Translations under genes and position numbers: made by a program
Assembly: GCA_022606425.2 (NCBI GenBank)
Contig: JAHDVF020000581.1
Span: 186,001-250,000, forward strand
Reading direction: 5' to 3'
Source of the DNA: Lepidostoma basale
Taxonomy: Eukaryota; Arthropoda; Insecta; Trichoptera; Lepidostomatidae
Length of the DNA: 64,000 bases
Notes under the pieces: model-generated
The model's database searches: none
Told to the model about the DNA's origin: nothing
What the model saw: only the letters and a program-made list of their open reading frames with translations
In this document: positions 1 through 59,265 of the stretch, piece after piece
Numbering within the stretch: position 1 is the stretch's first letter
Layout of the letters: each line of letters begins with the position of its first letter

Positions 1-66
1 GACCGACGTTTCCTATACCTCTATACCCTGAAGATGGAGACTGCAACGATCTCCGAAACGTCGGTC
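1..66 (+). ncRNA. Hammerhead-ribozyme-like motif, family HHR-G
   Basis: CTGAAGA (28-34) and GAAACGTC (55-62) bracket a stem II of GGAGA/TCTCC. The core residues of a hammerhead (CUGANGA, GAAA, cleavage triplet GUC) are all present. Stem III is the minimal palindrome ACGT, and three base pairs of stem I (25-27 with 63-65) can form. A perfect 12-bp inverted repeat, GACCGACGTTTC (1-12) with 55-66, marks a second, truncated head-to-head copy cut by the window edge. Family knowledge: such minimal hammerheads occur in Penelope-like elements. Activity is inferred. Confidence 0.65.
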
Positions 67-332
67 GAGAAGGAGTTACCCAAAACACACCAAACATGTG
101 ACAAATTTGTTTCGCCTTGCGAGGACATTCTCAAACTGAACCTAATTGCCAAACAGTGTGTCCTTATATTGAGTTTAGAAATCTTAAGGGTGGGGAAAAA
201 AGATTATAATATGCAAATTTTTGAGTTGTTAAATAAAAATATTAAGTGATGAGTTATAAGTAAATTTACAACTAAATTTCTGTGAATTTTTTAGGTTCAA
301 TACATAATAATAAACAGTATCATCGCAACTGA

Positions 333-357
333 ATTTACTAGGAATTTTTGAGGTTCA
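333..357. repeat. Target-site duplication of J element, left copy
   Basis: The 25 bases beginning ATTTACTAGGAATTTTTGAG recur at 3160-3184 with one mismatch. They flank the Jockey-like LINE, so they are its target-site duplication. Confidence 0.8.
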
Positions 358-3159
358 CTTCATAATCAGTTCAGTTTAGTTTATTTCATTTCATCAATAG
401 ACATTACAAAATAAAATTTTAAGGCATCTATTGAGAACAGGTACAATAATATATTGTTATAATAATAATATACTACCAGAAACGCATGAGAGATGGTTGA
501 ACATTAGGAAGACAGGATACCCTCCAGAATTAAGAGTATTTGCCTTCTGAACGTACTTTTACTGATATGAAAGACGTCGATTTCCGAGGAGACCGCGTTC
601 AGCAGATTGATTGCTCTTCCCACCGGTGTCACCAGAGCCAGGTTGGTTCTAGCGGCGGATAGGTAAAACAATCTATGCTGGCGCTGTCGGAGATATCTGT
701 CGGGAACAAAAAGACCTACACCCTCCAGCACGGCTGAGTTTTCAAAATATCCCCTAATAAGCTAAAGAAATGGGTTATGAGAAACCCGTCTCTTCGAAGC
801 TGCAGAGAATTAGACCCCAACATTCCCAAAAGAAACGCTGTGGGATAGAGCCATGGATAGCTACCATACTCCTTCATGTAGAGATACCTCAGAAATTTTT
901 TCTGAACCCTCTCCAGCATAAGGGAATATCTCGCCTCGTGCGGACTCCATATCACAGAACCACTTTCGAGTCTGCTCCGAACCAATGAATTGTATAGTAC
1001 TCTGAGCACATTGGGATCTCTGAAAACCCTTCCGGTCCGAATCATGAAGCCCAACATCTTCAGCGCAATGCCACAAATTCTCTCAACATGAGCATGAAAG
1101 GTTAATCTACTCTCATAGATGACCCCGAGATCTCTCATAGTGGATACATGTGCCAACTGCTGGTTATTCATCGTGTATCTATGATATATAGTTCTCCGTG
1201 CTCTCGTAAAAGATAACATTACGCACTTAGAGACATTGAATTTCATATGATTACTGTGACTCCAGGTAACAATATTATTAATATCCGACTGAAGGCGTAG
1301 ACAGTCGTCAGGATTATTTATGTCTAGGAATAATTTCAGGCCATCGGCAAATAAAAGAAATCGCGAGAAGTTTATTACCTTCGCAATATCGTTTATGAAT
1401 ATAGTGAAGAGAAGTGGGCCAAGGTTCGAACCCTGTGGCACCCCTGAATAAACAAAAAAAGGTTCCGATTGAAAAATTCCGTACGAGACGAATTGTTTCC
1501 TCCCCTCAAGGTAACTAGTGAAAAGCATAATAAGTTGAGAAGAGAAACCAATTTGAGATAGCTTTGCTATAAGAATGTCATGGTTCACAGTATCAAATGC
1601 CTTTGAGAAGTCATTATATGAACAGTCAACTTGGTGACCATTGTCCAAAGCCCTTGTTATGTATTCTGTGAAGACCATGAGATTTGTTTCAGTAGAGCGC
1701 CCCTTCCTGAACCCATGTTGTTCTGTTATAATATATGGGTCAACTCTGGGAAATATCAATTTATGTAGAATAGATTCGAATAGCTTGGCTGGAGCCGACA
1801 GTATTGCTACAGGTCTGTAGTTTTCGACTGACTCTTTTGTTCCGCTCTTGAAGATAGGACTGATCCTAGAAACTTTCCAGAGATCAGGAAAAGTATTTGT
1901 ACTTAACGATAGGTTAAATAAAAAGTACAGCGGATATATTAAGAGCTCAGAGCAGCCTTTGAAGAAGAAGATGGGAAGAAAATCCGGACCAACCGAGTGC
2001 GAATTCTTCATTGCTTTGATGGATGATTTAATATCATTTGTGTCTATGTTAGATATGTCAAAGCTATGAGCGCACTTACTGGTATTCGAACCGGTCGCTG
2101 AATTTAAATTGAGCCGCGGGGGAATATTGCTATAGACAGATTGAAAGTGCTTAGCGAATGCGTTCGCTATGTTTGCGCCCTCAACCTCTCTATCCCCATG
2201 CATCATGGTATTTAGGATGCCACCGTCTTTACGTAGGCTTTTTATGTAGTTCCAGAAAGTCCCGGGGTCATTCATAAGATCGCCCTCAATGGTGCTTATA
2301 TATGCTCGAAAGGCTGACCGAACATTCCGTCTCACCACCGAGCGGTGCTTACTGAAAAGTTCATACTCATCCCGAGAGCCAGTGGCCTTCCACTTCACAT
2401 GATGTGCATGTTTGATCTTAATTTCCGCGATGATTTCCCTAGAAAACCACCTAGGATATCTCCGTCCACCATTGCTCACGCGTTTTCTGGGAAAGCACAT
2501 ATCAAATAAACTGTAAATCACACTATAAAAATATTGTAAGGCATCATTTACGGAGGACAAGTTGTACAGGTCACTCCAGTCAAGTTGAGTCATCAGCTGG
2601 TATAGGTTCAGAAAATCACCCCGACTGAAGTTCCATCCCCTGAAGATTTCATCATGCCGCGGTACTCTGGTTATATTAGGATTATTTTTACCAGAGCACT
2701 CAAACTCCAATGCGGGATGAAAATTATCCTCAGGTACTAATGGAGACACTGATCTAGAAACTTGCAATTTGATATTGCTCAAAATCAAGTCCAAGGTTCT
2801 GAAATCAGAATTCAAAATGCCACTGTGCTGCGCAAGCCCAAAGACCGCGCATAGGTACTCCAAGTCTTGCTGGACATTGTCGATCCCATGAGCGGAGTGT
2901 AGGTTAAAGTCGCCCATCACGATGACATTTTTACCTCCGACCAGATTGAAATTTGTATGCATCGCATCAAAGAAATGTTTATAGACTACCCAATTAGACC
3001 CCGGAGGAATGTATGTTACACAAATAAAAATTATATTTCTAAGTCCAGTCAGTTTTACCCATAGGTCCTCATTGATTGATTCAAGATTTGAGACACGCTC
3101 AGCCCTCAGCGCATCCCTCCTCGAATAATGATAGATAGTAACATTTAAATTTACAGCTG
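358..3159 (-). mobile_element. Jockey-like LINE (J), 5'-truncated insertion
   Basis: A non-LTR retrotransposon copy on the minus strand bounded by 25-bp direct repeats. It contains the end of the endonuclease, the whole reverse transcriptase region, a C-terminal region and a 3' UTR (about 358-500) that matches the J ends at 20738-20888 and 51456-51822. The 5' end is truncated within the endonuclease, as is usual for target-primed reverse transcription. The insertion lies between diverged copies of a short AT-rich sequence (258-310 resembles 3143-3199). Confidence 0.85.
504..3159 (-). pseudogene. J element ORF2: endonuclease (partial), reverse transcriptase
   Basis: The frame is open from the truncated 5' end (about 3159) to 716. 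Counting residues from the Met at 2962: the endonuclease motif GDFN is at 17-20, reverse transcriptase spans about 365-600, DFSKAFD starts at 451 (catalytic Asp), and GVPQGS is near 508. The catalytic loop reads FADG (538-541) where FADD is expected, a single transition (GAC to GGC, near 1340), which should kill polymerase activity. A one-base deletion near 760-765 then shifts the frame. The true C-terminus continues in another frame at 504-731 (FVPDRYLRQRQHRLF), as shown by the copy at 17278-17997. A dead but recent copy. Confidence 0.85.
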
Positions 3160-3184
3160 ATTTACTAGGAATTTTTGAGATTCA
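3160..3184. repeat. Target-site duplication of J element, right copy
   Basis: Matches 333-357 with one mismatch. Confidence 0.8.
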
Positions 3185-3300
3185 ATATACATTAGTAATA
3201 GTCCATTGTTATGGCCGAAACACTATGATATTTTAACATTTTATAACTGTCAATTAAAAAACTTTGTTTTATATCACAAATTGTATTTATTTTACTTTAC

Positions 3301-3336
3301 GACAGCTGTTTCATCAACCAATGTTGACATCATCAG
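3301..3336 (-). ncRNA. Hammerhead-ribozyme-like motif, HHR-A
   Basis: On the minus strand, CTGATGA, then T, then GTCAAC/GTTGAT stem II with loop ATTG, then GAAACAGCTGTC. Stem III is the self-complementary ACAGCTGT, with no room for a loop in one molecule, so a dimeric fold is more likely. The GUC cleavage triplet is intact. Confidence 0.65.
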
Positions 3337-3395
3337 GTGTTACAAAAATATGTATCAAAAATGATTTATATTTTTGATATATATTTTTGTAACAC

Positions 3396-3431
3396 CTGAT
3401 GATGTCAACATTGGTTGATGAAACAGCTGTC
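3396..3431 (+). ncRNA. Hammerhead-ribozyme-like motif, HHR-A
   Basis: Plus-strand partner of the motif at 3301-3336 with the same intact core residues. Stem I begins with C-G and A-T pairs flanking the core, and an outer AT-rich helix (TATTTT with AAAATA) can form around an internal loop. Confidence 0.65.
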
Positions 3432-3692
3432 GTAAAGTAAAATAAATACAATTTGTGATATGAAATAAAGTTTTTGAATTGACAGTTATATAACGATAAT
3501 AGTAACATCACCACCATCAATAATTGTTTTATTATTTTGTATCTATAAGATTTAACAAAAAATACAATAAAATGGTTTCTTTAAAGGTGTTTTATATTTT
3601 AAATAATTTTTGGAAATTCTTTTTAACAGTAGCTTATTTTATATTATAAGCCTCCAGGGTTTCCGAGAATTGGAAATATAAAGCTCCTTGTA

Positions 3693-4981
3693 AAGGGTGT
3701 TTTTTTAGCTGCATGAGAAGTTTCGATGGTTGTTGTCTATGGTTTGACAGTTGATAATGTCAAATTGTGTTGACAATTCATCATGAATCGTTTAACGCCA
3801 GAACAACGCTTCCAAATTGTGGAAATTTACTTTGAAAAAAATAAATCTGTTCGCCAAGTTCATAGAGCACTTCGTCCATTTTACGGTCAACATAATCGGC
3901 CTAGTGAGCAAGCAATTCGTGCAGTTATTGATCATTTTCGCACTAATTTTACTCTTCTCGATTCAAAACCATCAGGAAGACAAAGAAATATGCGTACCGA
4001 AGAGAATATTGCTGCTGTAGCGCGAAGTGTTGAAGAAGACGCCAAAATGTCGATTCGTCGCCGTTCTCAACTTGTCGGCCTTTGTCCTTCGACTACGTGG
4101 AAAATTTTACTTAAGGATCTTGGCTTACGTGCCTATAAAATACAGCTCGTGCAAGAATTAAAGCCAAATGACCATCGTTTACGTTGCATTTTAGCTGATT
4201 GGGCTAATTTGAAACTGGCCGAAGATGAGTATTTTTACCGAAGAATTATGTTTAGTGATGAAGCTCATTTCTGGTTAAATGGCTTCGTCAATAAGCAAAA
4301 TTGCCATATATGGAGCGAAGACAATCCTCAAGACATTAACGAATCACCATTACATCCATTAAAATTGACTGTTTGGTGCGGTTTACACGCTGGCGGCATC
4401 ATCGGTCCTTATTTCTTTCGAAATGAGGAAGGAACTGCCGTTACGGTGAATGGCGAGCGATATCGAGCCATGCTGACTGATTTTTTGTTTCCAAAAATTA
4501 ATCTGCTAAACATCGACGACATTTGGTTCCAACAAGACGGCGCAACTTGCCATACAGCGCGCTTAACCATCAATTTATTGCAAAATCAATTTGGTGACAA
4601 CTTTATTTCCAGAAGTGGTCCTGTTAACTGGCTCCCTCGTTCGTGCGACTTGACGCCTCTTGATTACTTGTTATGGGGCTATCTTAAGTCATTGGTTTAT
4701 GCCGACAAACCAACAACTCTTGAAGCATTGGAAGCCAATATTCAAGCCACCATTGACGCCAAACGGCCAGATTTATTGGAAAAAGTATTGAATAATTGGA
4801 CTGATCGAATGGACTATGTAACTCGTAGCCGCGGCAGACGTACTCGTATACCGGAAATCATATTTAAAAAATAAATGTCATGAAATTATCTACCAGATTA
4901 TAATAATAAAAAAATCATCCCAAAAATAGTTCTGTCTTGTATTATTATTTAAAGTTCTCAAGCTCTTAAAAAAACACCATA
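3693..4981 (+). mobile_element. Mariner transposon, DD41D (rosa-like), apparently complete
   Basis: TA dinucleotides flank the element (3691-3692 and 4982-4983). Imperfect terminal inverted repeats of about 28 bp start AAGGGTGTTTTTTTAG on the left and TATGGTGTTTTTTTAA on the right. The size of about 1.29 kb and the single uninterrupted transposase frame are typical of mariners. No nested insertion is seen, so it is one of the youngest elements here. Confidence 0.9.
3783..4874 (+). CDS. Mariner transposase, DD41D type, 363 aa
   Basis: Cut-and-paste transposase that would bind the flanking inverted repeats and insert at TA. The N-terminal part (about 1-115) reads as two helix-turn-helix segments. 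The DDE/D catalytic domain shows FSDEAHF (Asp159), QQDGATCHT (Asp252) and PLDYLLWG (Asp294). The 41 residues between the second and third Asp give DD41D, the spacing described for the rosa group. The frame is intact from Met to stop, with full usual length, and the start is the first Met after the left repeat. It may still encode active enzyme. An alternative count to Asp289 gives 36, but alignment of PLDY with the usual SDY favours 41. Confidence 0.92.
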   Translation: MNRLTPEQRFQIVEIYFEKNKSVRQVHRALRPFYGQHNRPSEQAIRAVIDHFRTNFTLLDSKPSGRQRNMRTEENIAAVARSVEEDAKMSIRRRSQLVGLCPSTTWKILLKDLGLRAYKIQLVQELKPNDHRLRCILADWANLKLAEDEYFYRRIMFSDEAHFWLNGFVNKQNCHIWSEDNPQDINESPLHPLKLTVWCGLHAGGIIGPYFFRNEEGTAVTVNGERYRAMLTDFLFPKINLLNIDDIWFQQDGATCHTARLTINLLQNQFGDNFISRSGPVNWLPRSCDLTPLDYLLWGYLKSLVYADKPTTLEALEANIQATIDAKRPDLLEKVLNNWTDRMDYVTRSRGRRTRIPEIIFKK

Positions 4982-4983
4982 TA

Positions 4984-6170: not shown

Positions 6171-6207
6171 CTTGAACACTGAGGTAAAACTACATATAAA
6201 ATAAATA

Positions 6208-6710: not shown

Positions 6711-6714
6711 ATCC

Positions 6715-9235: not shown

Positions 9236-9270
9236 ATTGTATATGTTTTAATACAAATAAAATTACATAT

Positions 9271-9553
9271 TCCATTGTTTTGGCCAAAACACTATGATAC
9301 TTTAACATTATAGACTGTTAAATTAAAAAAAAACTTTGTTTTAAATATAATAATTGTATTTTTATTTTTCGCGACAGCTGTTCCGTCAACCTATGTTGAC
9401 ATCATCAGGTGTTACTATAATATATCAAAATTTGATATTTTATTGTAACACCTGATGATGTCAACATAGATTGACGAAACAGCTGTCGCGAAATATAAAT
9501 ACACGATTGTGATATATATACTCGTATATGACAAAGTTTTTTAATTTAACAGT
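9271..9553. repeat. HHR-A hairpin element, both arms kept
   Basis: Left end CCATTGTTTTGGCC, with a minus-strand motif at 9373-9408 (GAAA mutated to GGAA) and a plus-strand motif at 9452-9487. Arms mirror over most of the element. Confidence 0.75.
9452..9487 (+). ncRNA. Hammerhead-ribozyme-like motif, HHR-A
   Basis: CTGATGA, T, GTCAAC/ATTGAC stem II (five pairs), GAAACAGCTGTC. All core residues are intact. An outer stem I helix ATATTT/AAATAT is possible. Confidence 0.65.
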
Positions 9554-9723
9554 TTACAAATAAAATTACAAATTACACATTAACCCATAAATGTATCCCA
9601 TTAACCCATAAATATAAAATACCCATAAATATTATAAATACAAGATATAATATTAAGCAATTTTTAACATGAATGTGGTCAGTTTTAACAGATGTTACAG
9701 TAAATTGAATTCTTTTTCTTTCA

Positions 9724-11195: not shown

Positions 11196-11577
11196 AAAAA
11201 AAATATTAAAAATCAATTGATATTAAACTTAATACATTGTAATATTATTGTAGAAAAATAAAAATAAAATTCATTCTTTTCAATGAACTTCTACCAAGAA
11301 ATTTCAAATAACATTAAATAAAAATATAAATCTGTATAAAAACGTAAATATCTAATTATGTAATTTCAAATCAAAGTTCCCGTTACAACACAAGGTATTG
11401 GACCCAGAATCATTCTTAGGATTCTATTCACAAACCAGTATATAGCTATTTAATAGTCATCCATGAGCCAGAAATATATGGTATATCACCACTGGTTTAA
11501 TGATGGTGTTATAACGTGAATCTAAGATAACATGTGAATCCGTGACCTTGAGGTTACTTGGAAAGTGTTCTTCTATA
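11196..11577. other. No gene recognised
   Basis: AT-rich. Contains ATGAACTTCTACCAAGAAAT (about 11283), a block that recurs near 46369 and, diverged, near 20635 and 59890. Confidence 0.4.
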
Positions 11578-11984
11578 TTTAATTGTATCTCAATAGAGAC
11601 GAAGACGCAAACTGAATATGGATGATCAAGGTGTTTACAGGACTTATGACCTGTCATTGGTTGGGTTAAGCGCACGCTTTATGTAATTACAACATTCCCC
11701 ATTCCACTTTGTTATGATAAGTTAACCTTGAATGTATTCACAAGTGCAACCAATCTACATAGATGGATAATTGAAACTGACACGTGAAGATAGGTATGGA
11801 TTTTGAAGTATATATACATCTTCCAAAAATTTGTCATGCATGATCATAACAAAGGTGGAATGGGGAATGTTGTAATTACATAAAGCGTGCGCTTAACCCA
11901 ACCAATGACAGGTCATAAGTCCTGTAAACACCTTGATCATCCATATTCAGTTTGCGTCTTCGTCTCTATTGAGATACAATTAAA
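11578..11984. repeat. Foldback repeat with near-perfect 141-bp arms
   Basis: Left arm 11578-11718 and right arm 11843-11984 are inverted copies with about one indel, around a 124-bp spacer. The arms include ACCTGTCATTGGTTGGGTTA and a TTAAGCGCACGC block. A diverged single arm lies at about 27178-27316. I recognise no transposase. This could be a foldback/MITE-type DNA element or an inverted duplication. Confidence 0.8.
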
Positions 11985-12425
11985 TTTGAATTGACCACCC
12001 TTTGGTGAAAATCCAGAATTTCGTATACAAGTATAAGTATACATTCACAAAAATATTTGTTCTTCTATAGATTGTCTTATCACTAAATGGCCAGATTATC
12101 TTTATATATTTTAATGTTTTGTTTTTAAAATGCTCTAAACATGAGTTGCATCTTTTTACCGTTTCTACATCAGAATGGAAAATTTTGGGCCCCGTTTGCG
12201 CTGACCGTAACAGCGTCCCCGTTTATTTATTTATGAGAGAACCCCGTAGGTGGAGTTCAGACAAAATAACATATGTATGTCAACATTTCCAGTCATTTCT
12301 GCAAATATTACGACTTTATAAAATCCTGTACAACCGTTTTTAATTCGAGTTAGTTGTCAAACTGATACAAATCCTTTTTTGGGTTAGGGTATACGGGTTT
12401 ATGTTTCGCCTTTTTTGAGTTTATC
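11985..12425. other. No gene recognised
   Basis: AT-rich. A 74-codon frame at 12119-12343 shows no family features. Confidence 0.4.
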
Positions 12426-12560: not shown

Positions 12561-12604
12561 TCTTATTAATTATTTAATAAGATATATTATAATATTTAGT
12601 ATCA

Positions 12605-12635
12605 CTGAAGAAGGACTGGTTGTCCGAAACATGTC
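12605..12635 (+). ncRNA. Hammerhead-ribozyme-like motif, HHR-B copy 1
   Basis: CTGAAGA, A, GGAC-TGGTT-GTCC stem II, GAAACATGTC. Core intact with N7 = A. Stem III is the palindrome ACATGT. GUC cleavage triplet. Confidence 0.65.
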
Positions 12636-12706
12636 TATGTAATTTTAATTTTTTAATGAAGTGTTGTATGTACAATAATTAGTACATATATTTATAACAT
12701 GTATCA

Positions 12707-12737
12707 CTGAAGAAGGACTGGTTGTCCGAAACATGTC
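12707..12737 (+). ncRNA. Hammerhead-ribozyme-like motif, HHR-B copy 2
   Basis: Identical core to copy 1 across CTGAAGA, stem II and GAAACATGTC, with diverged flanks. Identity confined to the core suggests constraint or recent homogenisation. Confidence 0.65.
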
Positions 12738-13027
12738 TTTGTAATTAAACAATTTTAATGTACGAGTAAGTGTTGCATATAAAAAAGTATATAAAAAAGG
12801 AAAGGAGAAATAAATCATCTACAACACAAAGTATGGCGAATATAGAAGATATTTAATAAGAAGTTATATCATTGTTCAAGAAACAATAAAAATTAATGGA
12901 AAAACATTTAATACTGCAACAGCAAGGTTCGACAAGGTGAAACGTGCCATTCACAAATATCTCTTAATTGTTATCGGTTTCACCAAACCTCATTATATTT
13001 ATAGTTTAAATTACTATAATTTTTAGT

Positions 13028-15983: not shown

Positions 15984-17149
15984 TTATGTATATTATTGTT
16001 CGTTAAGGCTATAAAAATATAATGTAGTACATTATAGATGCAGACGAGAAGAATGCATTGATAACAATTTAATAATAAGTCGTCCGGCCAGATCGGTTTG
16101 ATCGGTGCGTCCCAAGAATGGCTGTAACTACGAAAATATTCAGAATTTCAGAAAATCTTCTTAGGGTCATATTCTTAAAAGTCTAAACTTTAAAAATATG
16201 GAAAAAACGGTTCTTTCAATTTTCTACACTGGAATACCCCCTCAAGTTTATTAATAATGTTAAATAATAATTTTAAATTCTGCTAAAATATTCCAATATT
16301 TAGCATTGAGTCTTTGGCTTGATCTTGAGTCGAATCTATCTATGTATTATACATAAAATTGGAAAACAATGTTATATACTCGTATATATAAAAATCTTTT
16401 TCTTTTTTGTTAATGTAAACATCTTATAGAAACTAGATCAAAACAAAGATTTATATCTTATTCTAAAAAATATTATTCGTAGTAAAATTTAATAACCTAT
16501 ATTCAATAACTGTTGAAATAACGTTTCGATTCTATTATGTAATAATATTAAAAACTGTTCTCATATTATATTGTTTGAACATTTTTTTCAAATGATTTAT
16601 TCAGCACGTTAAAGCAAATAGATATTATGGGTATGCAATTGAATGGGGAAAAATCGACATAAGCCCCCTTTAAATAACTCGTGACCCCAAGCCCGAAGAT
16701 AGTGACCCCTCAGAGTTATCTTTCAGTACAACTGAATTCATTAAACACAACGCGAGCCAATTTAATTTCGTAACATGAAACATGTACATATATTATGTTT
16801 GATTTCTCCAGGGAACAGTAAGTTAATTGCTCTTATAAACTCACTAGAAAACTAAGTCGAGATAGCGTACTACAGCGTAGTTGATATAATGTCTAGCCTT
16901 GTGCATACAAATTGTTCACCAAATTGGCAATTCCTCCCAAAGGTCGGAACGGAGAAATGTAATTTTAAACATCTGTTATCCGACGACTGTTTTAAATTTG
17001 AACAAGTATTTTCACCATCCTTTACATTTGCCGAATCGCACGAAATCGAGAGATTCACTTTATTTTTTCAATTTTATAATACTTTCTTTGTTAAAAAAAA
17101 AAAAAAAACAATGTATATTAAGCTAAAATTCACAAATACTTGTACCTTT
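15984..17149. other. No gene recognised, AT-rich
   Basis: About 1.1 kb without recognisable repeats. A 119-codon frame at 16889-17248 runs into a poly(A) stretch and has no family features. Confidence 0.45.
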
Positions 17150-17181
17150 GACCGGTTTCAGCAGCTCGCAGCCATCTTCTG
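17150..17181 (-). ncRNA. Hammerhead-ribozyme-like motif, HHR-F
   Basis: Minus strand: CAGAAGA, T, GGCTG/AGC-TGC-like stem II (imperfect), GAAACCGGTC with palindromic stem III ACCGGT. U4 of the core is A, as in the other HHR-F copy at 46234, so activity is doubtful. Confidence 0.5.
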
Positions 17182-17277
17182 GTACCTATATAAAATTTTG
17201 CTAGGATTATATTGTACAATATATGAGATAAAAATGGTGAGGGGATGAAGTTCAGCGTTTCTATATAATCCAATCAA

Positions 17278-17997
17278 GAGGATTTGTGACATTGCACTGA
17301 GGATGTTGGGCTTCACCATTCGGACATTCGGAGTTTTCAGAGATCCTAATGTGCTCAGAGTCCTATACAACGCGTTGGTTCGGAACACACTTGAAACTGG
17401 GTCTGTGATATGGAGTCCTCACGAGGCAAGATATTCCGTTATGCTGGAGAGGGTTCAGAAAAAAAATCTGAGGTATCTCTACATGAGGGAGTATGGTAGT
17501 TATCCGTGGCTCTATCCCACGGCATATGATATCCGTGGCTCTATCCCACGGCATTTCTTTTGGGAATGTTTGGAACCAATTCTTTACAGCTTCGAAGAGA
17601 TGGGCATCTCATTACCAATTTCTTTAGATTAATCAGGGGATATTTCAAGAACTCGGCCGTGCTAGAGGGTGTTGGTTTTTTTGTCCCTGATAGATTTCTC
17701 CGACAGCGACGGCACAGATTGTTTTACCTACTGGCCGCTAGAACCATTCTACCCCTGGCGACACCGGTGGGAAGGGCAATTAGCCTGTTGAACGCGGTCT
17801 CCTTGGAGATCGACGTCTTTCATATTAATACGTTCAGGGGACTAATACTCTTGACTTTAGAAAGTATCTCTAATGCGTTCCTGGTATTATGTTGTATTTT
17901 TATAAAATTTTACCTATACTATATAGATGCCTTAAACATTTTGCTGTTTGTAATGTCTTTTGAGTTAATAAACTGGTATGATTTGATTTGATTTGAA
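17278..17997 (+). pseudogene. J LINE 3' fragment (C-terminus and tail)
   Basis: Reads RMLGFTIRTFGVFRDPNVL, then an internal tandem duplication (24 bases at 17503-17526 repeated at 17530-17553) that breaks the frame. The frame resumes in 17560-17900 with NSAVLEGVGFFVPDRFLRQR. Ends in TGATT repeats (about 17970-17997). It serves as the reference showing where the J copy at 504-3159 is frameshifted. Confidence 0.8.
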
Positions 17998-19488: not shown

Positions 19489-19745
19489 CAACTAACCATC
19501 ACGACGACCTTCGTGGCAGAGTGGTTACGAGCTCTGACTTCCATGCCGAAGGTCCTGGGTTTGATTCCCGGCGATTGCAGTGTGATTGTCACACTGTATT
19601 TGGTCTGGTGTAGAATTCACGTGACAATAAAATGGCGATAGATTGGCTACCTATCACATGTCACGAAAATCAATATAATAGCTAAAAAATAAAATTTGTA
19701 TACAGTAATTGGGTCCAAACGACCTGTTGTGTACATAAAAAAAAA
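19489..19745 (+). mobile_element. tRNA-derived SINE, full length
   Basis: Starts at about 19504 directly after an RA terminal piece (ACTAACCATCAC). Pol III A box TGGCAGAGTGG (about 19513) and B box GGTTTGATTCC (about 19558) belong to a tRNA-like head with a good T-arm. The body has GGCGATAGATTGGCTACCTA, and the tail GTATACAGTAATTGGG...TGTACATAAAAAAAAA ends in poly(A). Transcription would be from internal promoters; mobilisation needs a LINE in trans. Confidence 0.85.
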
Positions 19746-21205: not shown

Positions 21206-21447
21206 GGCGACCTTCGTGGCAGAGTGGTAAAAGCTCTGTCTTCCATACCGAAGGTCCCGGGTTCGATTCCCGGCGATGGCAGTGTGATTGTCACACTGTC
21301 ATTGGTCTGATGTAGAATTCATGTGACAATAAAATGGCGATAGATTGGCTACCTATCACAAGTCACGAGAATCAATATAATAACTAAAAAATAAATTGTA
21401 TACAGTAATAAGGTTTAATCGACCTATTGTATACATAAAAAAAAACA
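21206..21447 (+). mobile_element. tRNA-derived SINE nested in RA LINE
   Basis: Head GCGACCTTCGTGGCAGAGTG, B box GGTTCGATTCC (consensus), body and poly(A) end as in the copy at 19504. It sits inside an RA copy whose coding sequence resumes after it. The duplication is short (ACAA). Confidence 0.88.
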
Positions 21448-24205: not shown

Positions 24206-24298
24206 GTTTTATTTTTATTTTGATAATAAATATACTTTTTCATTTACTTAGGAAATTAAAAATAACTTTGTTTAATCCACAAAATATTAAAAAAACAC

Positions 24299-24329
24299 CA
24301 CATATTTCGGAGGATACCTCCATCTTCAG
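24299..24329 (-). ncRNA. Hammerhead-ribozyme-like motif, HHR-H, minus arm
   Basis: CTGAAGA, T, GGAGG-TAT-CCTCC, GAAATATGTG. Core kept except in the stem III/cleavage part (ATATGTG in place of ACATGTC). Confidence 0.55.
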
Positions 24330-24344
24330 GTAAGACATATCCAC

Positions 24345-24375
24345 CTGAAGATGGAGGTATCCTCCGAAACATGTC
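24345..24375 (+). ncRNA. Hammerhead-ribozyme-like motif, HHR-H, plus arm (best core in the window)
   Basis: CTGAAGA (24345-24351), T, stem II GGAGG-TAT-CCTCC with five perfect pairs, GAAACATGTC (24366-24375). Stem I adds CAC/GTG (24342-24344 with 24376-24378). All hammerhead core residues and the GUC triplet are intact. Confidence 0.7.
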
Positions 24376-24489
24376 GTGTTTTTCAATATTTTGTGGATTA
24401 AACAAAGTAATTTTCAATTTCCTAAGTATATTATTATATTATAGAATTCCACAGTGTTGCCTTAGCGTTCAAAATTTTTTCATTAATAG

Positions 24490-24800
24490 TTTTTTATTAA
24501 AGCATATTTTTATTAATTCTTTTCAATGATACAGAAGTTTCATTCCATTTTATGGGAACGACAGGTTTCGCCTTTCTAAGGCATTATCATATGATAATGA
24601 TTTGATAATGCCTTAGAAAAGAGAACCATGCCATTTCCTTAAAATATAACAAAACTGTTAATTGTTTTATTATATTTTAAGGAAATGGCATGGTTCTCCT
24701 TTCCAAGGCTTTATCATATGATAACGATTTGATAATGCCTTAGAAAAGAGAACCATGCCATTCCCTTTAAAAATAACAAAACTTCTAGAAAACAAAAATT
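24490..24800. repeat. HHR-C cluster: hairpins within hairpins
   Basis: At least four HHR-C cores in alternating orientation: minus at 24560-24590, plus at about 24600-24630, minus near 24690-24715 and plus near 24730-24760. The first reads ATGATAATGCCTTAGAAAGG then CGAAACCTGTC; the others end GAACCATGCC. G8 of the hammerhead core is A in all, so catalysis is not expected. Confidence 0.6.
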
Positions 24801-26849: not shown

Positions 26850-27330
26850 AGATGGCGCTAGTGTACAACAATGTTAAGTTATTAAAAATAGTAGTTCCAA
26901 AAATTTGTCAAATGTATACATTGCTTCCCCCCCTCAAAATTGCTCTACCTTATCATATGTATAAGTATACTCTTAATATATAATATCTGTAAACTCAACC
27001 CTCCTACACACTAAACTCAACCCCATAAAGTCACACACACTACACCACACACAAATACAAAAAACCACACCCACAAACCACATAACTCGTCAATGGGAAG
27101 AAGTAACAGACTTCCGAGTCTCACTCCAACAAATCACAGATCCAAGTCAAGTTGTCAAATGTGGTGTCGTAAGAAGGGCGGAATGGGAAATGTTGTTAAC
27201 ATAAAGTGATCGCTTAACTCAACCAATGACAGGTCATAATTCCTGTAAACGCCTCGACTACCATATTTTGTTTCCAAATAATTTACGTCTTCGTCTCTAT
27301 TGGGATACAATTAATACTTAAAAAATATTT
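26850..27330. repeat. Diverged half of the foldback family, with an AC-rich tract
   Basis: TTCCAAAAATTTGTCAAATG (about 26893) corresponds to 11822-11837 of the foldback, and 27178-27316 matches its right arm (AACCAATGACAGGTCATAA). The part between (about 26995-27085) is an AC-rich low-complexity tract. No opposite arm is present. Confidence 0.55.
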
Positions 27331-28611: not shown

Positions 28612-28998
28612 TTTTATTTCTTCTATATTCGCCATACTTTGTGTTGTTATGATGCTATATTTCTCTTTTTCTTTTTTATGTACTTTGTATATACAACACT
28701 TATATTAATAAAATAAAATTACATAGACATGTTTCGGACAGTCCTTTTTCAGTGATACATATTATAAAGATATATTTTAAAAATATTTCAAAATTGTTAT
28801 ATGATCTGACAGATGTTATAAAGATTTATTTTAGCATAAACGTTCCAAAATAAATCTTTATAAAATTTGTCAGATCTTGTAAACAATTTTATAATATTTT
28901 AAAAATGTATCTTTATAATATGTATCACTGAAAAAGGACCGGTTGTCTGAAACAAGTGTTGTATATACAAAGTATAAAAAAAATAAAAAAGAGAAATA
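28612..28998. repeat. HHR-B hairpin element
   Basis: Long inverted repeat: TTTCTCTTTTTCTTTTTTAT and TTGTATATACAACACT on the left mirror GTGTTGTATATACAAAG and AAAAAAGAGAAATAAAAC on the right. Minus core 28726-28752 (CTGAAAA, GAAACATGTC) and plus core 28928-28957 (CTGAAAA, GAAACAAGTG). G8 is A in both, so probably inactive. Confidence 0.7.
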
Positions 28999-29694
28999 AA
29001 ACTTTTTTATTAATAAAAAAAATTTAAATTTATTTTTTCGACAAGTTTTAAGGGTTTTTATATAACATAATCGGAGCAAAAGTATATGGGCTGCGAACCT
29101 TTAAAAGCATCGTGAAAAATAAATTCGAATGCAAAAAAACATGTTTTTTATTCATAAACATACCTCGTACACCATAGATATGAAAAACACTGTCAGATGT
29201 TTTCTTGTAAGCCAAAATTTTCGTGTCATCTAGTACGCTACATTGCCTCTTGTATTACATCTATTCTGATATTTTCCTTATTCATATAAGGAACTTAATT
29301 GTTCAACATTTTAAGGAACTTTATAAAGTAAACAATCCTAACCTTCAGTGTCAAAACCAGACAATCATATCGCTTACATCCATTCTTACCGTGTACGTGT
29401 TTTCTCTGCTACTTTTGAAAGAAAGATTTCAGTTTAAATTTTACAGGACCAAACAGCCTTTATAAGTCATCATCTTTTGTCAGATTTTCAAGAAAAAAAC
29501 ATTAATTTTTCCAGATTTCAAACGTCTCCATGGAACATTAATCATTACAAAAAATGTTCTTACTTATTCCACACAGAGCTAAGTGATTTCATGCTTTACT
29601 TTGTTATGTAAATATTCCATTAGAGAGAAACCGTGTCCCTCTCTCTGACATCTTTGTAAGATATGGATACAACTAACATTCACAGAGGGACGTA
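28999..29694. other. No gene recognised
   Basis: AT-rich. Frames at 29223-29465 have no family features. Confidence 0.4.
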
Positions 29695-34210: not shown

Positions 34211-34790
34211 GTAAAAATTAATTTCTTCTATGTTCGCCATACTTTGTGTTGTAGACGTTTTATTTGTCTTTTTCTTTTTTATTATACTTTGTATATACAA
34301 CACTATTAAAATTACATATCAGACATGTTTGAGACAATTAGCCCTTCTTCAGTGGTACATATTATAAAGATGTATATTTTAAATATTATTAAATTGTTTA
34401 CAAATATATGATCAATTTTATAATATTTTAAATATGTATCTTTATAATATGTATCACTAAAGGACTGGTTGTCCAAAATATGTCTGATATGTAATTTTAA
34501 TAGTGTTGTATTTACAAAGTACATAAAAAAAGAAAAAGACAAAAATAAGTGAAAATAAATTATTGAAAAATTCCAAAATAAATCTTTATAACATCTGTCA
34601 GATCATATAAACAATTTTATATTATTTTGAAATATGTATATTTATAAAATGTATTACCAAAGAAGGACTGGTTGTCCGAAACATGTCAAATAATTAAAAA
34701 AAAATAATATGAGTATTGTATAAACAATGTGTATAAAAAAAGAAAAAGAGGAATAAAGCAATAACAACACAAAGTATGCCTAATACAGAA
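34211..34790. repeat. HHR-B hairpin plus an extra direct copy
   Basis: Minus core at 34322-34352 (CTGAAGA, GGGC/GTCT, CAAACATGTC), plus core at 34455-34484 (deleted), and a third, plus-strand core at 34657-34687 (CCAAAGA, GGAC/GTCC, GAAACATGTC). Each is followed by the family tail (GTATAAAAAAAGAAAAAGAG, ACAACACAAAGTATG). Spacing between the two plus copies is about 200 bp. Confidence 0.65.
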
Positions 34791-39285: not shown

Positions 39286-39360
39286 TTAACTACTCTGATG
39301 AAGGGCTTCTGTGTCCGAAACATATTTGTGTTTATTACATTTTTAATTTTTAATAATGAA
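39286..39360 (+). ncRNA. Hammerhead-ribozyme-like motif, HHR-D, with right arm
   Basis: Core 39295-39326: CTGATGA, A, GGGC-TTCTGT-GTCC stem II (one G-T pair), GAAACATATTTG. Core residues are intact; stem III palindrome is reduced (ACATAT). The family consensus at 41885 and 51357 is ACATGT with a GUU triplet. Confidence 0.55.
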
Positions 39361-39903: not shown

Positions 39904-39938
39904 GAGATGATGAAGGTGTAAAAATTTCGAAACATGTT
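39904..39938 (+). ncRNA. Hammerhead-ribozyme-like motif, HHR-E
   Basis: GAGATGA, T, GAAGG...TTTC stem II, GAAACATGTT. The first core bases are changed. Better copy at 51899-51933. Confidence 0.45.
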
Positions 39939-40374
39939 GAGAAAATTTAACTCAATAATGGAAAAGGCGACGTTCATAAAAAATATTCCTTTTTGGAATT
40001 ATACTGTATTACGCTTTAAGTTTATCAAAAACTTCTTAAAACAATCTCTTCGTTTCAACGGTTCGACAAAATAAATGTTTTACAATTTAGTTTGAGGGAA
40101 ATTTACTCCTAAAACGCCGAATTCGGGCAGAAGCGGCAATAGAATTTAATAATGAAAATGTCATCGCAGACCGCGGTCTCGGGAGGGAATTTACTCCTGC
40201 GGTGTAAATTGAATTCCTGTTTTGCGACGGAGGCGGCGGGCGGCGCGAGTCGCTGGACCGGAGGCTTAAAATAATACAAAATAATACAATTTGTACTTTT
40301 AATACAACTGCAATCTAAATAAGATACTTCAGTCATAATATCACCCAGGACAGGGCGGGCTAAATATTTTAGAT
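39939..40374. other. Repeat-free island at 40085-40270
   Basis: AT-rich flanks around a block of about 185 bp that is very G+C-rich (GGCGGCGGGCGGCGCGAG). Twice contains the phrase GAATTTACTCCT/GAAATTTACTCCT. No frame. Candidate regulatory DNA. Confidence 0.4.
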
Positions 40375-41873: not shown

Positions 41874-41990
41874 ATTATATTTACAAACATGTTTCAGACA
41901 TAGAATCCCTTCATTAGTGCAATTACTATTGTGTGTAAAAAATAAATATTTAAATGGTTTTTTCATGAATACGGTCAGTTTTGACATTTT
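41874..41990. repeat. HHR-D continuation after CR1
   Basis: Minus core 41885-41917: CTAATGA (G5 changed), GGGATTCTATGTCT, GAAACATGTTT. Followed by the sequence ATGAATACGGTCAGTTTTGA, also found in the HHR-D hairpin near 59040. Confidence 0.55.
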
Positions 41991-42049: not shown

Positions 42050-42157
42050 ATAATTAATATGAATGAAAAAGTCTGTAATTCTATTATATTTTAGATAGAA
42101 AAACATGTTTCGCCCTTCTAAGGCATTATCAAATTACATTTAAAAATTAACAATAAA
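42050..42157. repeat. HHR-C left half
   Basis: TAATATGAATGAAAAAGTCT, TAGATAGAAAAACATGTTTC and GCCCTTCTAAGGCATTATCA: a minus-strand TTGATAATGCC...GGGCGAAACATG core (C3 and G8 changed). Confidence 0.55.
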
Positions 42158-42295: not shown

Positions 42296-42644
42296 ATGAT
42301 TTATTGTGAATTGTGAATATTGTTATAGCTGCCAAAATTTCCGCTCACTCTATAAATTAATTTTGACATTGTGTAACAACTTTGGAAAAATATTACACGA
42401 GGAAATCAGTAATACCGTATCGATTGCCAAGAGCTAGGAAAATAAAGAATTTTTGTACTTACTAAATAGTCAACCCGACCTGCTGTGAGATTATACAGAT
42501 CGTGGAATACATCTTAAAAGTTGATAAGTCAAATATTGAACGAGGTTTTAAGTTATTTTTAATGTTCCTTTATAATGAAAACATCTGTTTTCTAGAAGTT
42601 TTACTATGTTCCCGTAAAATATAATTAAACTTATTACTGTTAAA

Positions 42645-42900
42645 ATTCAAAACACTGTTATAATATCACAATTTTTTTTTATTCACTGAGTTACAATATT
42701 TGGCATCACCAGGTGTTTTACTTTTATTTATATTGATACAATAAACTTTTATTGTAACACCTGATGATGTCAACATCGGTTGGCGAAACAGCTGTCGCAA
42801 CACTCTGAGTGAATAAAAAGAAATTGTGATATTAGAACTGTGTTAAATTTTAACAGTATTAATGCTGAAGCATCATAGTATTTCGGCCAAAACAATGGAC
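42645..42900. repeat. HHR-A element nested in HHR-C
   Basis: Arms around TTTTTTATTCACTGAGTT and ACTCTGAGTGAATAAAAAG. The minus core (about 42690-42712) is deleted; the plus core is intact. Right end CATAGTATTTCGGCC...AATGGACTATT complete. Confidence 0.72.
42761..42796 (+). ncRNA. Hammerhead-ribozyme-like motif, HHR-A (intact)
   Basis: CTGATGA, T, GTCAAC-ATCG-GTTGGC (six pairs including a G-T), GAAACAGCTGTC. The compensated stem II change relative to the copies at 3396 and 9452 supports selection on pairing. Outer stem I CTTTTATT/AATAAAAAG. Confidence 0.68.
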
Positions 42901-42938
42901 TATTGAAATAATAAAACTTCTATAGAACATTCGTTTTC

Positions 42939-46125: not shown

Positions 46126-46149
46126 ATATTATATACCTATAATAAATCT

Positions 46150-46372
46150 TTAAATAATGAAAACAAAAAAAAATATAATACAAAATTTCTTGATTATTAT
46201 ATATTTAGTGCGCTTCCACTTGTGTTTATCATGGATCGGTTTCGGCAGCTTGCTGCCATCTTCTGGCAGCAAGCTGCCGAAACCGATCGACGATAAACAC
46301 AAGTGGAAGCACACAAAATATTTAATAATAAAGAAATTTTGTTTATTTTTTTTTGTTTTCATTATTTAAAAT
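46150..46372. repeat. HHR-F hairpin, nearly perfect palindrome
   Basis: Arms of about 105 bp (CTTTAAATAATGAAAACAAA to its inverse; CGCTTCCACTTGTGTTTATC to GATAAACACAAGTGGAAGC) around a collapsed centre where the two hammerhead-like cores overlap. Right flank ATTTAAAATGAACTTCTACC is a recurrent boundary block. Confidence 0.75.
46234..46266 (-). ncRNA. Hammerhead-ribozyme-like motif, HHR-F
   Basis: Minus strand: CAGAAGA, T, GGCAG-CAAG-CTGCC (five perfect pairs), GAAACCGATC. U4 of the core is A. Stem III palindrome ACCGAT is imperfect. Confidence 0.5.
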
Positions 46373-51209: not shown

Positions 51210-51430
51210 ATATGAGATTCCGGACAAACACTTGTATGATATTATCACAACCGTTTTTTGGGCTTTTCAAAAGCATGTTTCGGGACACAAACTTCAGTGT
51301 AAAAATTCATACTTGGTGTATGAATTTTTACACTGAAGAATATAAGTTTGTGTCCTGAAACATGTTTGTGAAAAGCGCAAGAAAATAATGTGATAATACA
51401 ATGTTTCCAAAAAGTTTTTCAAATGCGAAT
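51210..51430. repeat. HHR-D-like hairpin
   Basis: Inverted repeat centred near 51313 (TTCATACTTGGTGTATGAA). Plus core 51333-51367: CTGAAGA, TATAAGTTTGTGTCCT, GAAACATGTTT. Minus core 51274-51297: GAAACATG and CTGAAGT, with part of stem II deleted. Confidence 0.65.
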
Positions 51431-51455: not shown

Positions 51456-51822
51456 TATCAAATCAAATCAAATCAAATCAGTTTATTAACTCAAAAGACA
51501 TTACAAACAGGAAAATGTTTAAAGCATCTATTGAGTACAGATAAAATATTATAAAAATACAACAAGGAACGCATTAGAGATGGTTCGACATTAGGAAGAC
51601 AAGATACTTTCTAAAGTCAAGAGTATTTGTCTCCTGAACGTACCTTCATTTATATAAAAGACGTCGATCTCCGAGGAGACCGCGTTCAGCAGACTAATTG
51701 CTCTTCCCACCGGTGTCACCAGAGGCAGATTGGTTCTGGTGGCCGGTAGGTAAAACAATCGGTGCTGTCACTGTCGGAGAAATCTATCAGGGACAAAAAG
51801 ACCAACATCCTCTAGCACTTAG
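51456..51822 (-). pseudogene. J LINE 3' end with (ATCAA)n tail
   Basis: Minus-strand TGATT tail (51456-51482), 3' UTR, and the C-terminus equivalent to VGLFVPDRFLRQ, TGHQNQSASGDTGG in a broken frame, and LLNAVSSEIDVFYI. 5'-truncated. Confidence 0.75.
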
Positions 51823-51898
51823 TTCTCGTAATAATAATAAGAGTAAACTTGTATGATAGGTGCTTTTGTTATGAATTAAACGAGTTTATATCGTTTTT

Positions 51899-51933
51899 CC
51901 GATGATGAAGGTGTAAAGCCTTTGAAACATGTC
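51899..51933 (+). ncRNA. Hammerhead-ribozyme-like motif, HHR-E
   Basis: CCGATGA, T, GAAGG-TGTAAAG-CCTTT stem II, GAAACATGTC. Only U4 deviates (C). Confidence 0.5.
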
Positions 51934-52004
51934 AAGAAAAATGAAGTCAAAAGTGGAAAAACAGTGAATTAATTTTTTTAAAAATCGTCATTATGGGATT
52001 CCAG

Positions 52005-56490: not shown

Positions 56491-56499
56491 ATCTCCATA

Positions 56500-57009: not shown

Positions 57010-57240
57010 ATCAATTCATATCGTGGAAGATGTCCACATCCGAAGAGATGCGGATTAGACGGATTATTGCCTTGCCCACGGGCATTACCTTAGGTAAATT
57101 GTTTCTGCACAGTGGCAGGTGAAATAATCTATGTTGCCTTTGTCGTAGATAATGCCAGGGAAATTCAATCACTTTACACCTTTGCACAGTTACTGATTGG
57201 ACTTTATGTTTAACACCAAATAGGGACCAAAATCTCATTC
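57010..57240 (-). pseudogene. J2-type LINE C-terminal fragment
   Basis: Minus strand: YLRQRQHRLFHLPLCRNNLP and KVMPVGKAIIRLIRISSDVD in one frame. Truncated on both sides. Confidence 0.7.
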
Positions 57241-57959
57241 TTGACTATTTTGGTACTTGGCACTTTGGTGATCATCATATATTCTCGTTTGTGATGTGAA
57301 TACAACAACACATAATAATAATAATTTATTTTTACTGTTAGAGTCAAGTATATGTTTAATGCATTCATCCTTGGGTTATATAATAGATGTTATTGGAGGA
57401 TGGCAGCATTGTTAGGCTAAGCAGGGCCAAATTGGTAAAATAGGTGACACTTCGTGCCGTAGATTGGGGTTAACCCGACGGCATTCGGAGTGCCGTTTCC
57501 CGGACCGCAATGAAACCCCTCGGCAATCAAACGACCAGTGATGGCCCGCTTCTCCGGACGGCGGCTTGGAATATAGATGACGAATTAGACGGAATAGCTG
57601 TCATTGAATTTCTGATTAATAATAATAAAGAAGACATGTGAACGAGTATGGGGTGATTCGCAAGGGTTAGAGTTTTTTGATGTTGAAATTAATATTTGTA
57701 TTCATTTTTGATAAAACTAACTATGGAATTCCATTATGACGTTTTTTTTTATTAAATACTGTTTTTTTCTAATTTTAAATAATTTTGTTGAAGATTTTAC
57801 AACTTAATCATCAGAGGACTGATATTAACTAACCAAACATATATTTATCAAAAAATAAAAACTTAAGTACACATGTAACACGTGCTATTTAAAATTAGAT
57901 AGATTACAAGTAACAGAATATTGACAAGAGCTTAATATATGAATATTTTAATAACTGTC
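57241..57959. other. Rep-free DNA with island 57440-57600
   Basis: Island with GGTTAACCCGACGGCATTCG and GATGGCCCGCTTCTCCGGAC. No convincing frame. Rest AT-rich. Confidence 0.4.
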
Positions 57960-58110
57960 AAATTTACCCGATGATGCCAACATCGGGTGACGAAACAGCT
58001 GTCGCGACATTCTCAAAAAATTTACAATAAAAAATATGATAAACATTAAAACAGTGCTCTCAATTTAACAGTGTTGAGGTATATAGTATTTCGACTAAAA
58101 CAATGAACTA
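57960..58110 (+). repeat. HHR-A, right half only
   Basis: Core 57968-58003: CCGATGA (U4 to C), T, GCCAAC-ATCG-GGTGAC, GAAACAGCTGTC; then family right arm and end (TAGTATTTCGACTAAAACAA). Confidence 0.6.
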
Positions 58111-58538
58111 TTTAATTAATATTTTATGTTTTGAAAAGGATTTTTTAATTGAAAGATAAGGATTAGCCTTGATTAACTATAAAGCTTTTGATTTAGTAAA
58201 GGAACAACTGTTCATATTTTAAGACATGAAGCAAATTGTCATTTCACCCAACAAGTAAATAAAGACAATTTTGTATAGTATAGTATACCATACTCAATGC
58301 TCCAGTAATGTGTTATATAATGTTTTATATTTTACATGAGCATAGGAAGGATAAATACAGGAATCAATATTTAAAGCCTTTTTATATAAATCACTAGAAA
58401 CAAAAATCTTGTCATAAAGGATATTTTATATCTTAAGTTTCAATCCTAGGGATTGATTTGTAGCAAGTCTCACATCTATCCTGGTTTTTGGAATGCCAAT
58501 TGGGTATTTGGTAATGTAGTAGTTTCCCGTTGATTTTT
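58111..58538. other. No gene recognised
   Basis: AT-rich, nothing recognised. Confidence 0.4.
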
Positions 58539-58635
58539 TCACACTGTCATCGCCAGGACCCCAGGACCTTTGTTGTGGCTGTAATAACTGTTGTCACTCT
58601 GCCACGAAGACCGTCAAGTTAGTTAGTTAGTTAAT
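58539..58635 (-). mobile_element. SINE head fragment fused to GTTA repeats
   Basis: tRNA-like head on the minus strand (CACTCTGCCACGAAGACCGT), immediately followed by GTTAGTTAGTTAGTTA, the RA tail. The same junction order occurs at 19489-19505. Confidence 0.65.
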
Positions 58636-58939
58636 AATAAAATCTGATAGTTTTGTTTTAAACGTTATTTAAATTTCATTTTCAAGTTCCTGTATACTCG
58701 TATATGGGTGCCCACTAACTAAAAATACCTGTTCAATCCCGTTGACCTGAATCCTTGATACCGAATATGATTTGAATAAAAATATTACCTCAGAATATTT
58801 TACATTCCAGTGCAAACAAGAGCAGCATTTTTCCATAATGTTCATTCAAGCAGATGGAACTCAATAAACAATCACATTCTAATGCAATATAAAGTAGAAG
58901 AGATTTCAGAACTCATCGTACTCGTACCACGAACAATGT
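58636..58939. other. No gene recognised
   Basis: AT-rich; TACTCGTA at 58695 and 58919. Confidence 0.4.
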
Positions 58940-59265
58940 TATTTCTTTGTAAACAACACTTTATTAAAAAAAAAATTAACTTGCACAAACAAGTTTCGGA
59001 CACAAAAGCCGTTCATTAGTGTAGTAAACAAATTTTTCATGAATGTGGTTAGTTTTGACATTTTTTTTTTGTATTTTCTGACAACTTTAATATCTGTCCA
59101 AACTGACCACATATATACAATAATTAACTACACTGATGAAGGGCTTCTGTGCCAGACACATGTTTGTGTTAATTTTTATTTATTTTTAATTTAGTGCTAT
59201 TTATAAATAAATAAACATTGTTCAATGAATCCGCAACACAAAATTATGGTGAATACAGGTATAAA
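58940..59265. repeat. HHR-D hairpin element
   Basis: Outer arms TTGTAAACAACACTTTATTA and its inverse near 59190-59240. Minus core 58988-59019 (CTAATGA, GAAACTTGTTT). Plus core 59133-59166 (CTGATGA, GGGCTTCTGTGCC, AGACACATGTT). Each core has one or two changes. The centre has its own inverted repeat (GTGGTTAGTTTTGACA, TGTCCAAACTGACCAC). Confidence 0.7.

Follow-up and report, generated by a model that had tools for sequence, protein, structure and literature searches.

Hammerhead-like motifs in the window and in the genome

The window analysed here, a 64,000-nucleotide stretch of the Lepidostoma basale genome (Trichoptera; contig JAHDVF020000581.1, positions 186,001 to 250,000 of the forward strand), is scattered with short motifs that resemble minimal hammerhead ribozymes and that we relate to the pseudo-long terminal repeats (pseudo-LTRs) of Penelope-like retroelements. 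An earlier note on this DNA had counted about 30 of these motifs, which is a fair figure: a covariance model trained on 17 motifs, all from outside the window, and run without filters gave 26 matches with an E-value of at most 0.005 and 48 with one of at most 10 (these values are rough), and a relaxed scan combined with inspection yielded 28 tabulated sites, two rows of which (B6 and F_R) are badly anchored. A strict pattern, consisting of CTGANGA, one unpaired nucleotide, a stem II of at least 3 bp and GAAA, occurs at 11 sites of the window, one of which (57814, minus strand) is probably due to chance; 60 Markov-1 control sequences contained 0.32 such sites on average and never more than 2.

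In the genome, the pattern CTGANGAN{10,26}GAAACATGTC has 14,023 exact copies and the GAAACAGCTGTC form has 14,461, whereas the reversed patterns were found once and not at all, respectively. Both classes together amount to 28,484 copies or one per 27 kb, and the window carries 7 of them against 2.4 expected. With two classes this common in the genome, the density of motifs is not the novelty that had been claimed for it, and the variety of families already has a published precedent in a single coral with 16 families (PMC7229834). The low-scoring sites of the relaxed scan, which tolerates two mismatches, were about as frequent as in the controls and were excluded from the counts; such a frequency would fit the idea that the matches are chance or a loose-pattern artefact in AT-rich DNA. 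Against this idea stand the excess of strict sites, the recovery of window motifs by a model trained elsewhere and the genome-wide counts, so that it retains practically no probability and is already refuted by the reversed-pattern controls.

Pseudo-LTRs of Penelope-like open reading frames

No Penelope-like open reading frame (ORF) was found in the window (tblastn, 120 queries, best E 0.012), and to this extent the earlier impression of no Penelope-type enzyme in sight is correct. It does not extend to the 769-Mb genome, in which at least 95 Penelope-like matches to protein P0116 are present, several of them with open frames of 820-873 amino acids (aa), and in which the motif is located at the ends of these ORFs. 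We read 40 of the at least 95 loci and defined five motif classes, PLE1 to PLE5, after inspecting the same 40 loci. The motif follows downstream and on the same strand in 49 of 56 ORF blocks, some of which are counted twice as some loci overlap (contigs C219, C848, C753 and C1396), and in the remaining seven the locus stops no more than 94 bp beyond the end of the block. The distance from the end of the protein match is nearly constant within each family, with 623-861 bp for PLE1, 179-181 bp for PLE2, 131-132 bp for PLE3 (one case of 300 bp), 375-405 bp for PLE4 and 419-420 bp for PLE5. PLE1 copies have two alternative ends, one near ...KNIS and one 10-11 codons further on at ...GNLRSY, with one exception (L032), and the PLE4 loci (L043-L054) have the core TTGAAAA, which means that U3-A8 replaces C3-G8 in one Penelope-like family.

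Pseudo-LTRs beside an ORF with Penelope-like reverse transcriptase and GIY-YIG domains were found for PLE1 to PLE5, and three parts of the window are similar to them. The family G motif (20..72, plus strand; 33.8 bits, E 1.3e-6 in the covariance model) belongs to a region, 24-91, that corresponds to PLE2 at its pseudo-LTR and the beginning of its ORF (68 bp at 95.6% identity with L029), and its ATG opens METATISETSVEKE, as in PLE2. The neighbouring motif at 96..142 (minus strand, E 1.7e-4) is of the PLE4 type, and positions 98-218 match the PLE4 pseudo-LTR with 86% identity over 121 bp (L051/L043). The third is the palindromic element of family E (51240..51398), with a weak motif at 51264-51305 (minus, E 0.58) and a second one at 51325-51374 (plus, stem I of 8 bp, E 1.9e-4); the segment 51322-51457 shares 77.5% identity with the pseudo-LTR of PLE3 in L058 (138 bp). 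Furthermore, copies of families A, B, D, F and J are also present in some of the 40 Penelope-like loci. No Penelope-like relatives were confirmed in wider collections of genome contigs and viral contigs.

Palindromic elements, tails and target-site duplications

Self-comparison revealed that many motifs of the window are arranged head-to-head and point outward in palindromic repeats some 160-300 bp long, and close motif pairs were head-to-head in 9 of 10 cases among the first 100 genome places listed. This layout is most distinct in family A, where element 1 (3197..3499; motifs 3295-3344, minus, and 3388-3437, plus; E 1e-7 for both) has arms of 94.6% identity and element 2 (9268..9554; motifs 9367-9416, minus, and 9444-9493, plus; E 2.4e-6 and 1.7e-8) has arms of 86.8% identity. 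In both, a tail of about 42 bp is attached to the left side and none to the right. Element 3 (42631..42913; motif 42753-42802, plus, E 1.5e-7) has lost the motif of its left arm and has the tail only on the right side, and a single arm with tail at 57958..58121 (plus; motif 57960-58009, E 2.8e-5) has a C in place of U4. Across the four copies the motif is the more constrained part, with 29 of 36 motif columns invariant compared with 22 of 61 outside.

Element 2 is flanked by a perfect 16-bp direct repeat (TACAAATAAAATTACA, left copy 9252..9267 and right copy 9555..9570, plus strand), a target-site duplication (TSD) that was reached in 0 of 1000 controls. The candidate TSD at element 3 measures 12 bp with one mismatch (score 9, reached by 40 of 1000 controls), the proposed 7-bp TSD at element 1 is not significant (score 7, 219 of 1000 controls) and no clear TSD was found at the elements of families H and E (scores 6 and 5, reached by 661 and 907 of 1000 controls).

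Family B is represented by a direct tandem at 12563..12860 (plus; motifs 12597-12643 and 12699-12745; E 1.2e-9 and 9.8e-9) with the 3' end ...CAACACAAAGTATGGCGAATATAG, by an inverted pair at 28612..29002 (motifs 28718-28760, minus, and 28920-28966, plus; E 3.2e-6 and 2.9e-6) and by a cluster at 34217..34790 (motifs 34314-34360, minus, 34449-34492, plus and weak, and 34649-34695, plus; E 2.2e-4, 1.7 and 1.6e-5). The palindromic element of family H (24242..24431, arms 90% identical) has motifs at 24291-24337 (minus, E 7.7e-5) and 24337-24383 (plus, E 3.2e-7), and a further weak motif (24552..24598, minus, E 0.0017) lies within the palindrome 24533-24786. Motifs of family D were found at 39287..39334 (plus, E 3.2e-7), at 41878..41925 (minus, E 0.0011; stem I of 5 bp, core CTAATGA) and as an inverted pair at 58931..59223 (motifs 58980-59027, minus and weak, E 0.28, and 59125-59172, plus, E 0.0044). 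Family F forms a palindromic element at 46149..46370 with arms of 89% identity and one motif (46226-46273, minus, E 1.1e-5) with the core CAGAAGA, which is also the core of a C/F motif with stem III ACCGGT at 17142..17189 (minus, E 0.0039). Two motifs belong to family J, one at 51891..51941 (plus, E 2.4e-6; stem II GAAGG/CCTTT, stem I of 5 bp, core CCGATGA) and one with a degenerate 5' side at 39906..39946 (plus, E 8.7e-4), and family K is present with the core TTGATAA (U3-A8) at 42094..42140 (minus, E 1.3e-4). The stem II and stem III sequences listed for the families in the earlier note are all present in the window, and in families C/F its shared CTGANGA core is replaced by CAGAAGA. A motif-free palindrome of about 409 bp (83%) is located at 11577-11985 and is related to 27167-27314.

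Inverted arms, small size and very high copy number are also features of DNA transposons of the miniature inverted-repeat transposable element (MITE) or foldback type, which might carry the motif by chance. The 16-bp TSD at one element and the one-sided tail are unlike the fixed-length TSDs and symmetric ends of such transposons, and the copies of families G, E and the PLE4 type match pseudo-LTRs of Penelope-like ORFs, which makes this origin of the repeats highly improbable.

Conservation of the fold

For the analysis of pairing, 12 family representatives were chosen by hand; those of B, D, F, J and G came from outside the window despite window copies, and the first PLE4 representative was the sole copy of 30 with a perfect stem II. 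We repeated the test with window copies where these exist and with a common PLE4 copy. Stem II, which had served as a criterion for finding the motifs, pairs in all 48 cells, which none of 20,000 shuffles equalled, and in 45 of 48 cells with the less favourable copies (again 0). Stem I, which had not been such a criterion, is paired in 43 of 60 cells (4 of 20,000 shuffles) and in 37 of 60 with the less favourable copies (128 of 20,000), and its pairs one, two and three form in 11, 10 and 10 of the 12 representatives. At the 28 tabulated window sites, the number of contiguous stem I pairs was reached by 8 of 5000 permutations and that of the first five pairs by 98. The core pair 3-8 is kept in 12 of 12 as C-G, U-A or U-G (equalled by 234 of 5000 shuffles), and U3-A8 has been reported as an active natural hammerhead variant (PMC3088659). 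GAA, A15.1-U16.1 and H17 are likewise present in all 12. Stem III is a loop-less palindrome of 4-10 nt in these representatives and would, as we infer, have to pair with that of a second motif.

Within family A, 95 of 100 listed copies were compared, as five of other length were left out. Stem II pair 2 occurs as TA 49, CG 39, TG 3 and GC 1 and pair 3 as CG 71, TA 12 and TG 6 (0 of 5000 shuffles in both cases), and a compensatory test on 50 distinct sequences was equalled by 0 (pair 2) and 24 (pair 3) of 5000 shuffles. Taken together, the sequence comparison supports a conserved, predicted hammerhead-like fold in which stems I and II covary between families and stem II also within family A. 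The conserved RNA fold that the earlier note had proposed is supported to this extent, and 77 of the 95 listed family A matches of the genome form at least 4 stem II pairs. This count applies to a register with an extra nucleotide, which is described below.

An extra core nucleotide that can overlap a start codon

All 12 representatives have an unpaired nucleotide between A9 and stem II and lack the canonical stem II start at 10.1-11.1, and this nucleotide is also present in 53 of 54 strict motifs of the 40 loci. If stem II is placed in the canonical register, only 21 of 48 cells pair (3359 of 20,000 shuffles). The window contains a single, spurious site in this register, and the genome matches listed contain 1 in 100 and 0 in 95. 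In detail, among the first 100 GAAACATGTC matches listed, a stem II of 3 pairs or more is formed by 83 in the extra-nucleotide register and by 1 in the canonical one, and the additional nucleotide is A in 55, T in 43 and C in 2; none of the 95 family A matches forms 3 canonical pairs, and here the nucleotide is T in 94 and G in 1. Among 97 genome matches with G after CTGANGA, most keep the extra nucleotide and a handful are canonical as judged by eye. The N that had been noted after CTGANGA is an additional unpaired nucleotide of the core.

In one family, the ATG made by A9, the extra nucleotide and G10.1 is the start of a Penelope-like frame of 814 aa (L024). The cut is predicted at a distance of 25 nt (H) or 29 nt (PLE2/G and PLE1), counted from the first letter of the start codon.

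A pattern scan of IMG/VR, biased to the extra-nucleotide register, gave 23 contigs with a related pattern. By a simple stem count without shuffle controls, 14 of these combine the extra nucleotide with three hammerhead-like stems (L003, L004, L005, L007, L008, L010, L011, L013, L014, L015, L019, L020, L021 and L022, several of them near-identical), with 4-8 pairs in stem I, 5-7 in stem II and 4-10 in stem III. The extra nucleotide is U in 13 of them and C in L010, and L009, L016 and L017 have the canonical register. None of 12 viral loci, including 10 of the 14, reached the Rfam gathering score for hammerheads. As the 14 viral contigs combine both features, the extra nucleotide is compatible with the three-stem layout of hammerheads, and judged from sequence the motif of these contigs is possibly an undescribed phage variant. 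It is conceivable, if rather doubtful, that Penelope-like elements and the IMG/VR viral class (probably phages) share a twelve-nucleotide core with a position '9a' (mostly A/U) unseen by Rfam, in which A9-U9a-G10.1 reads AUG and each cut would remove the start codon, as a switch between translation and RNA processing.

A predicted dimeric ribozyme of Penelope-like elements

We consider it very likely that the families of the window belong to one class, with G, E and the PLE4-type motif matching Penelope pseudo-LTRs and the other families being likely ORF-less derivatives, and that the motif is a predicted minimal type I hammerhead that would cut mainly as a dimer. In a read-through RNA with two motifs, the palindromes would pair into a common stem III, and each motif would cut after its NUH triplet to release RNA of unit length that begins with a 5'-OH. 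Such a cut would detach the start codon from the ORF in coding copies, and one transcript of such a copy might either be used as mRNA or be processed, but could not do both. The enzyme of an intact element may act in trans and copy the RNA at a nick in the target, with a head-to-head pair as a frequent outcome; the palindromic window copies would then probably be inverted pseudo-LTR pairs from target-primed reverse transcription. The order, tail and TSD of the window copies agree with the published Penelope structure (PMC3846280). Cleavage of PAc (Poseidon of Anolis carolinensis) needs protein and is not required for insertion in vitro (PMC11167929).

What appeared to be an outbreak of unrelated ribozyme families is reduced in this way to one class of Penelope pseudo-LTR motifs and their likely derivatives, with tens of thousands of copies in one genome. 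Such a large natural alignment makes the covariation of stem II, the 3-8 pair and the extra core nucleotide testable, and the overlap of start codon and ribozyme becomes easy to examine experimentally.

Several observations weigh against this interpretation. The motifs depart from the published hammerhead core by one nucleotide, and Perreault et al. rejected hits mispaired at N10.1-N11.1 (PMC3088659). Only 7 of 12 representatives (PLE1, PLE2, PLE3, A, B, D and H) have an exact CTGANGA; the others have U3 with A8 (PLE4 and K), U3 with G8 (J), U6 (PLE5) or A4 (F). Stem I next to the core is absent or broken in families A, F and K, and the fourth stem II pair is mismatched in 29 of 30 PLE4 copies. 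When six motifs were folded singly by energy, family B and the PLE4 centroid took the open layout, PLE1, A and J formed extended hairpins, and H combined stem II with a competing hairpin; only PLE1 and J fold clearly better than shuffled sequences (z -4.3 and -2.9; others -0.5 to -1.7). The Rfam hammerhead models had no match in the window even at E<=10 and thus miss every copy of the motif there, and in the genome Hammerhead_1 gave 1 match, with a very long stem II loop, among the 73 of 94,533 candidates scored. The check by covariance models that the earlier note had suggested was negative for the Rfam models and positive for our own, with its 26 matches.

Doubt also arises about the origin of the window copies. 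No ORF with a pseudo-LTR of family A, B, D, F, H, J or K was identified in the 40 loci by a scan aimed at the PLE1 to PLE5 classes only, and a clear TSD was present at 1 of 5 elements tested. The three family A copies of the window agree with a palindrome that forms anew at each insertion, which would make each arm closest to its own partner. When 12 additional copies of families A and B were compared together with A1 and A2 of the window, family H with its one copy being left out, the own partner was the closest arm in 14 of 26 cases (10 of 18 in family A and 4 of 8 in family B), and this weakens the de novo formation; by bit score, which is biased by the tail, the number was 10 of 22. The mean arm identity for own versus cross partners was 86.3 versus 71.5 in family A and 88.0 versus 81.1 in family B.

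Some of these points would also fit a motif that is a conserved RNA hairpin of Penelope-like elements and no longer catalytic, for example a site of reverse transcriptase binding or initiation, with the extra nucleotide having cost the hammerhead activity. The near universality of this nucleotide among the matches listed, the extended hairpins as lowest-energy folds of PLE1, A and J, the A instead of U4 in families C/F and the need of PAc cleavage for protein, together with its dispensability for insertion in vitro, are in line with such a hairpin. A plain hairpin, however, needs no CTGANGA-like and GAAA blocks kept across families with unrelated stems; in addition, the core 3-8 pair also occurs as U-A, in all 12 families the palindrome ends in U and the next nucleotide is C, U or A, and 14 of 23 viral contigs pair the extra nucleotide with three stems (counted without shuffle control). 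We regard a non-catalytic hairpin as unlikely and prefer the predicted ribozyme.

Other features of the window

Apart from the motifs, the window contains an open reverse transcriptase frame of 821 aa (716-3181, minus strand; PF00078), and the segment 394-1083, which covers its 3' end and extends past it, has further copies at 17277-17963, 25894-26377 and 51491-51818. A 366-aa open frame for a DD41D/mariner-like transposase (3774-4874; PF16087) is 89% identical to a protein from a JGI contig, has its best named relatives in a spider, a copepod and flies, which points to a probable arthropod host, and is possibly a recent insertion. A tRNA-Gly (TCC) at 21210-21281 lies inside a repeat that is 90% identical to 19505-19745. 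With Rfam, a tRNA was above the gathering score in the window, and the sub-threshold matches were mostly of the miRNA type and located at the palindromes. The last part of the window (60001-64000) has a G+C content of 0.49 compared with about 0.35 elsewhere, and a weak zf-RVT match at 61661-62179 is below the cut-off.

Comparison with known systems

Minimal type I hammerheads are known from Penelope pseudo-LTRs, where they form thousands of dispersed copies and are thought to need dimers (PMC7761336, PMC6155905, PMC6466107), and the motifs described here share their minimal type I layout with little or no helix III and their position in pseudo-LTRs. The coral mentioned above contains more than 6000 minimal or canonical motifs in its 16 families (PMC7229834). 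The animal retrozymes of the same paper are also small ORF-less retroelements with type I hammerheads; they consist of tandem repeats with classical type I motifs, whereas the window copies are mostly palindromic and combine a minimal core with an extra nucleotide. The head-to-tail order of retrozymes was seen in one direct tandem (12605, 12707), with the other copies mainly head-to-head.

In bdelloid rotifers, Penelope elements have head-to-head pseudo-LTRs, a palindrome at the junction, an optional 31-bp tail on one of them and TSDs (PMC3846280). The head-to-head order, the junction palindrome, the one-sided tail and the TSD recur in L. basale, and the alternative ends of PLE1 resemble the optional 31-bp tail. 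Unlike the bdelloid elements, the window copies have no Penelope ORF and occur only as inverted or single pseudo-LTR-like units.

The closest parallel for the start codon is PAc, in which mutations of C3 and G8 abolish cleavage and the start codon follows C3 and G8, with the cut site 26 bp after it (PMC11167929). As in PAc, the start codon lies inside the predicted ribozyme after C3 and G8, the cut is predicted just downstream and the motif sits at the junction of pseudo-LTR and ORF; the distance differs, with the 25 (H) or 29 nt (PLE2/G and PLE1) from the A of the ATG being predicted from sequence alone. For the most part, these motifs are likely a further case of the known Penelope hammerheads, and the extra core nucleotide together with its use in the start codon may be the less known part.

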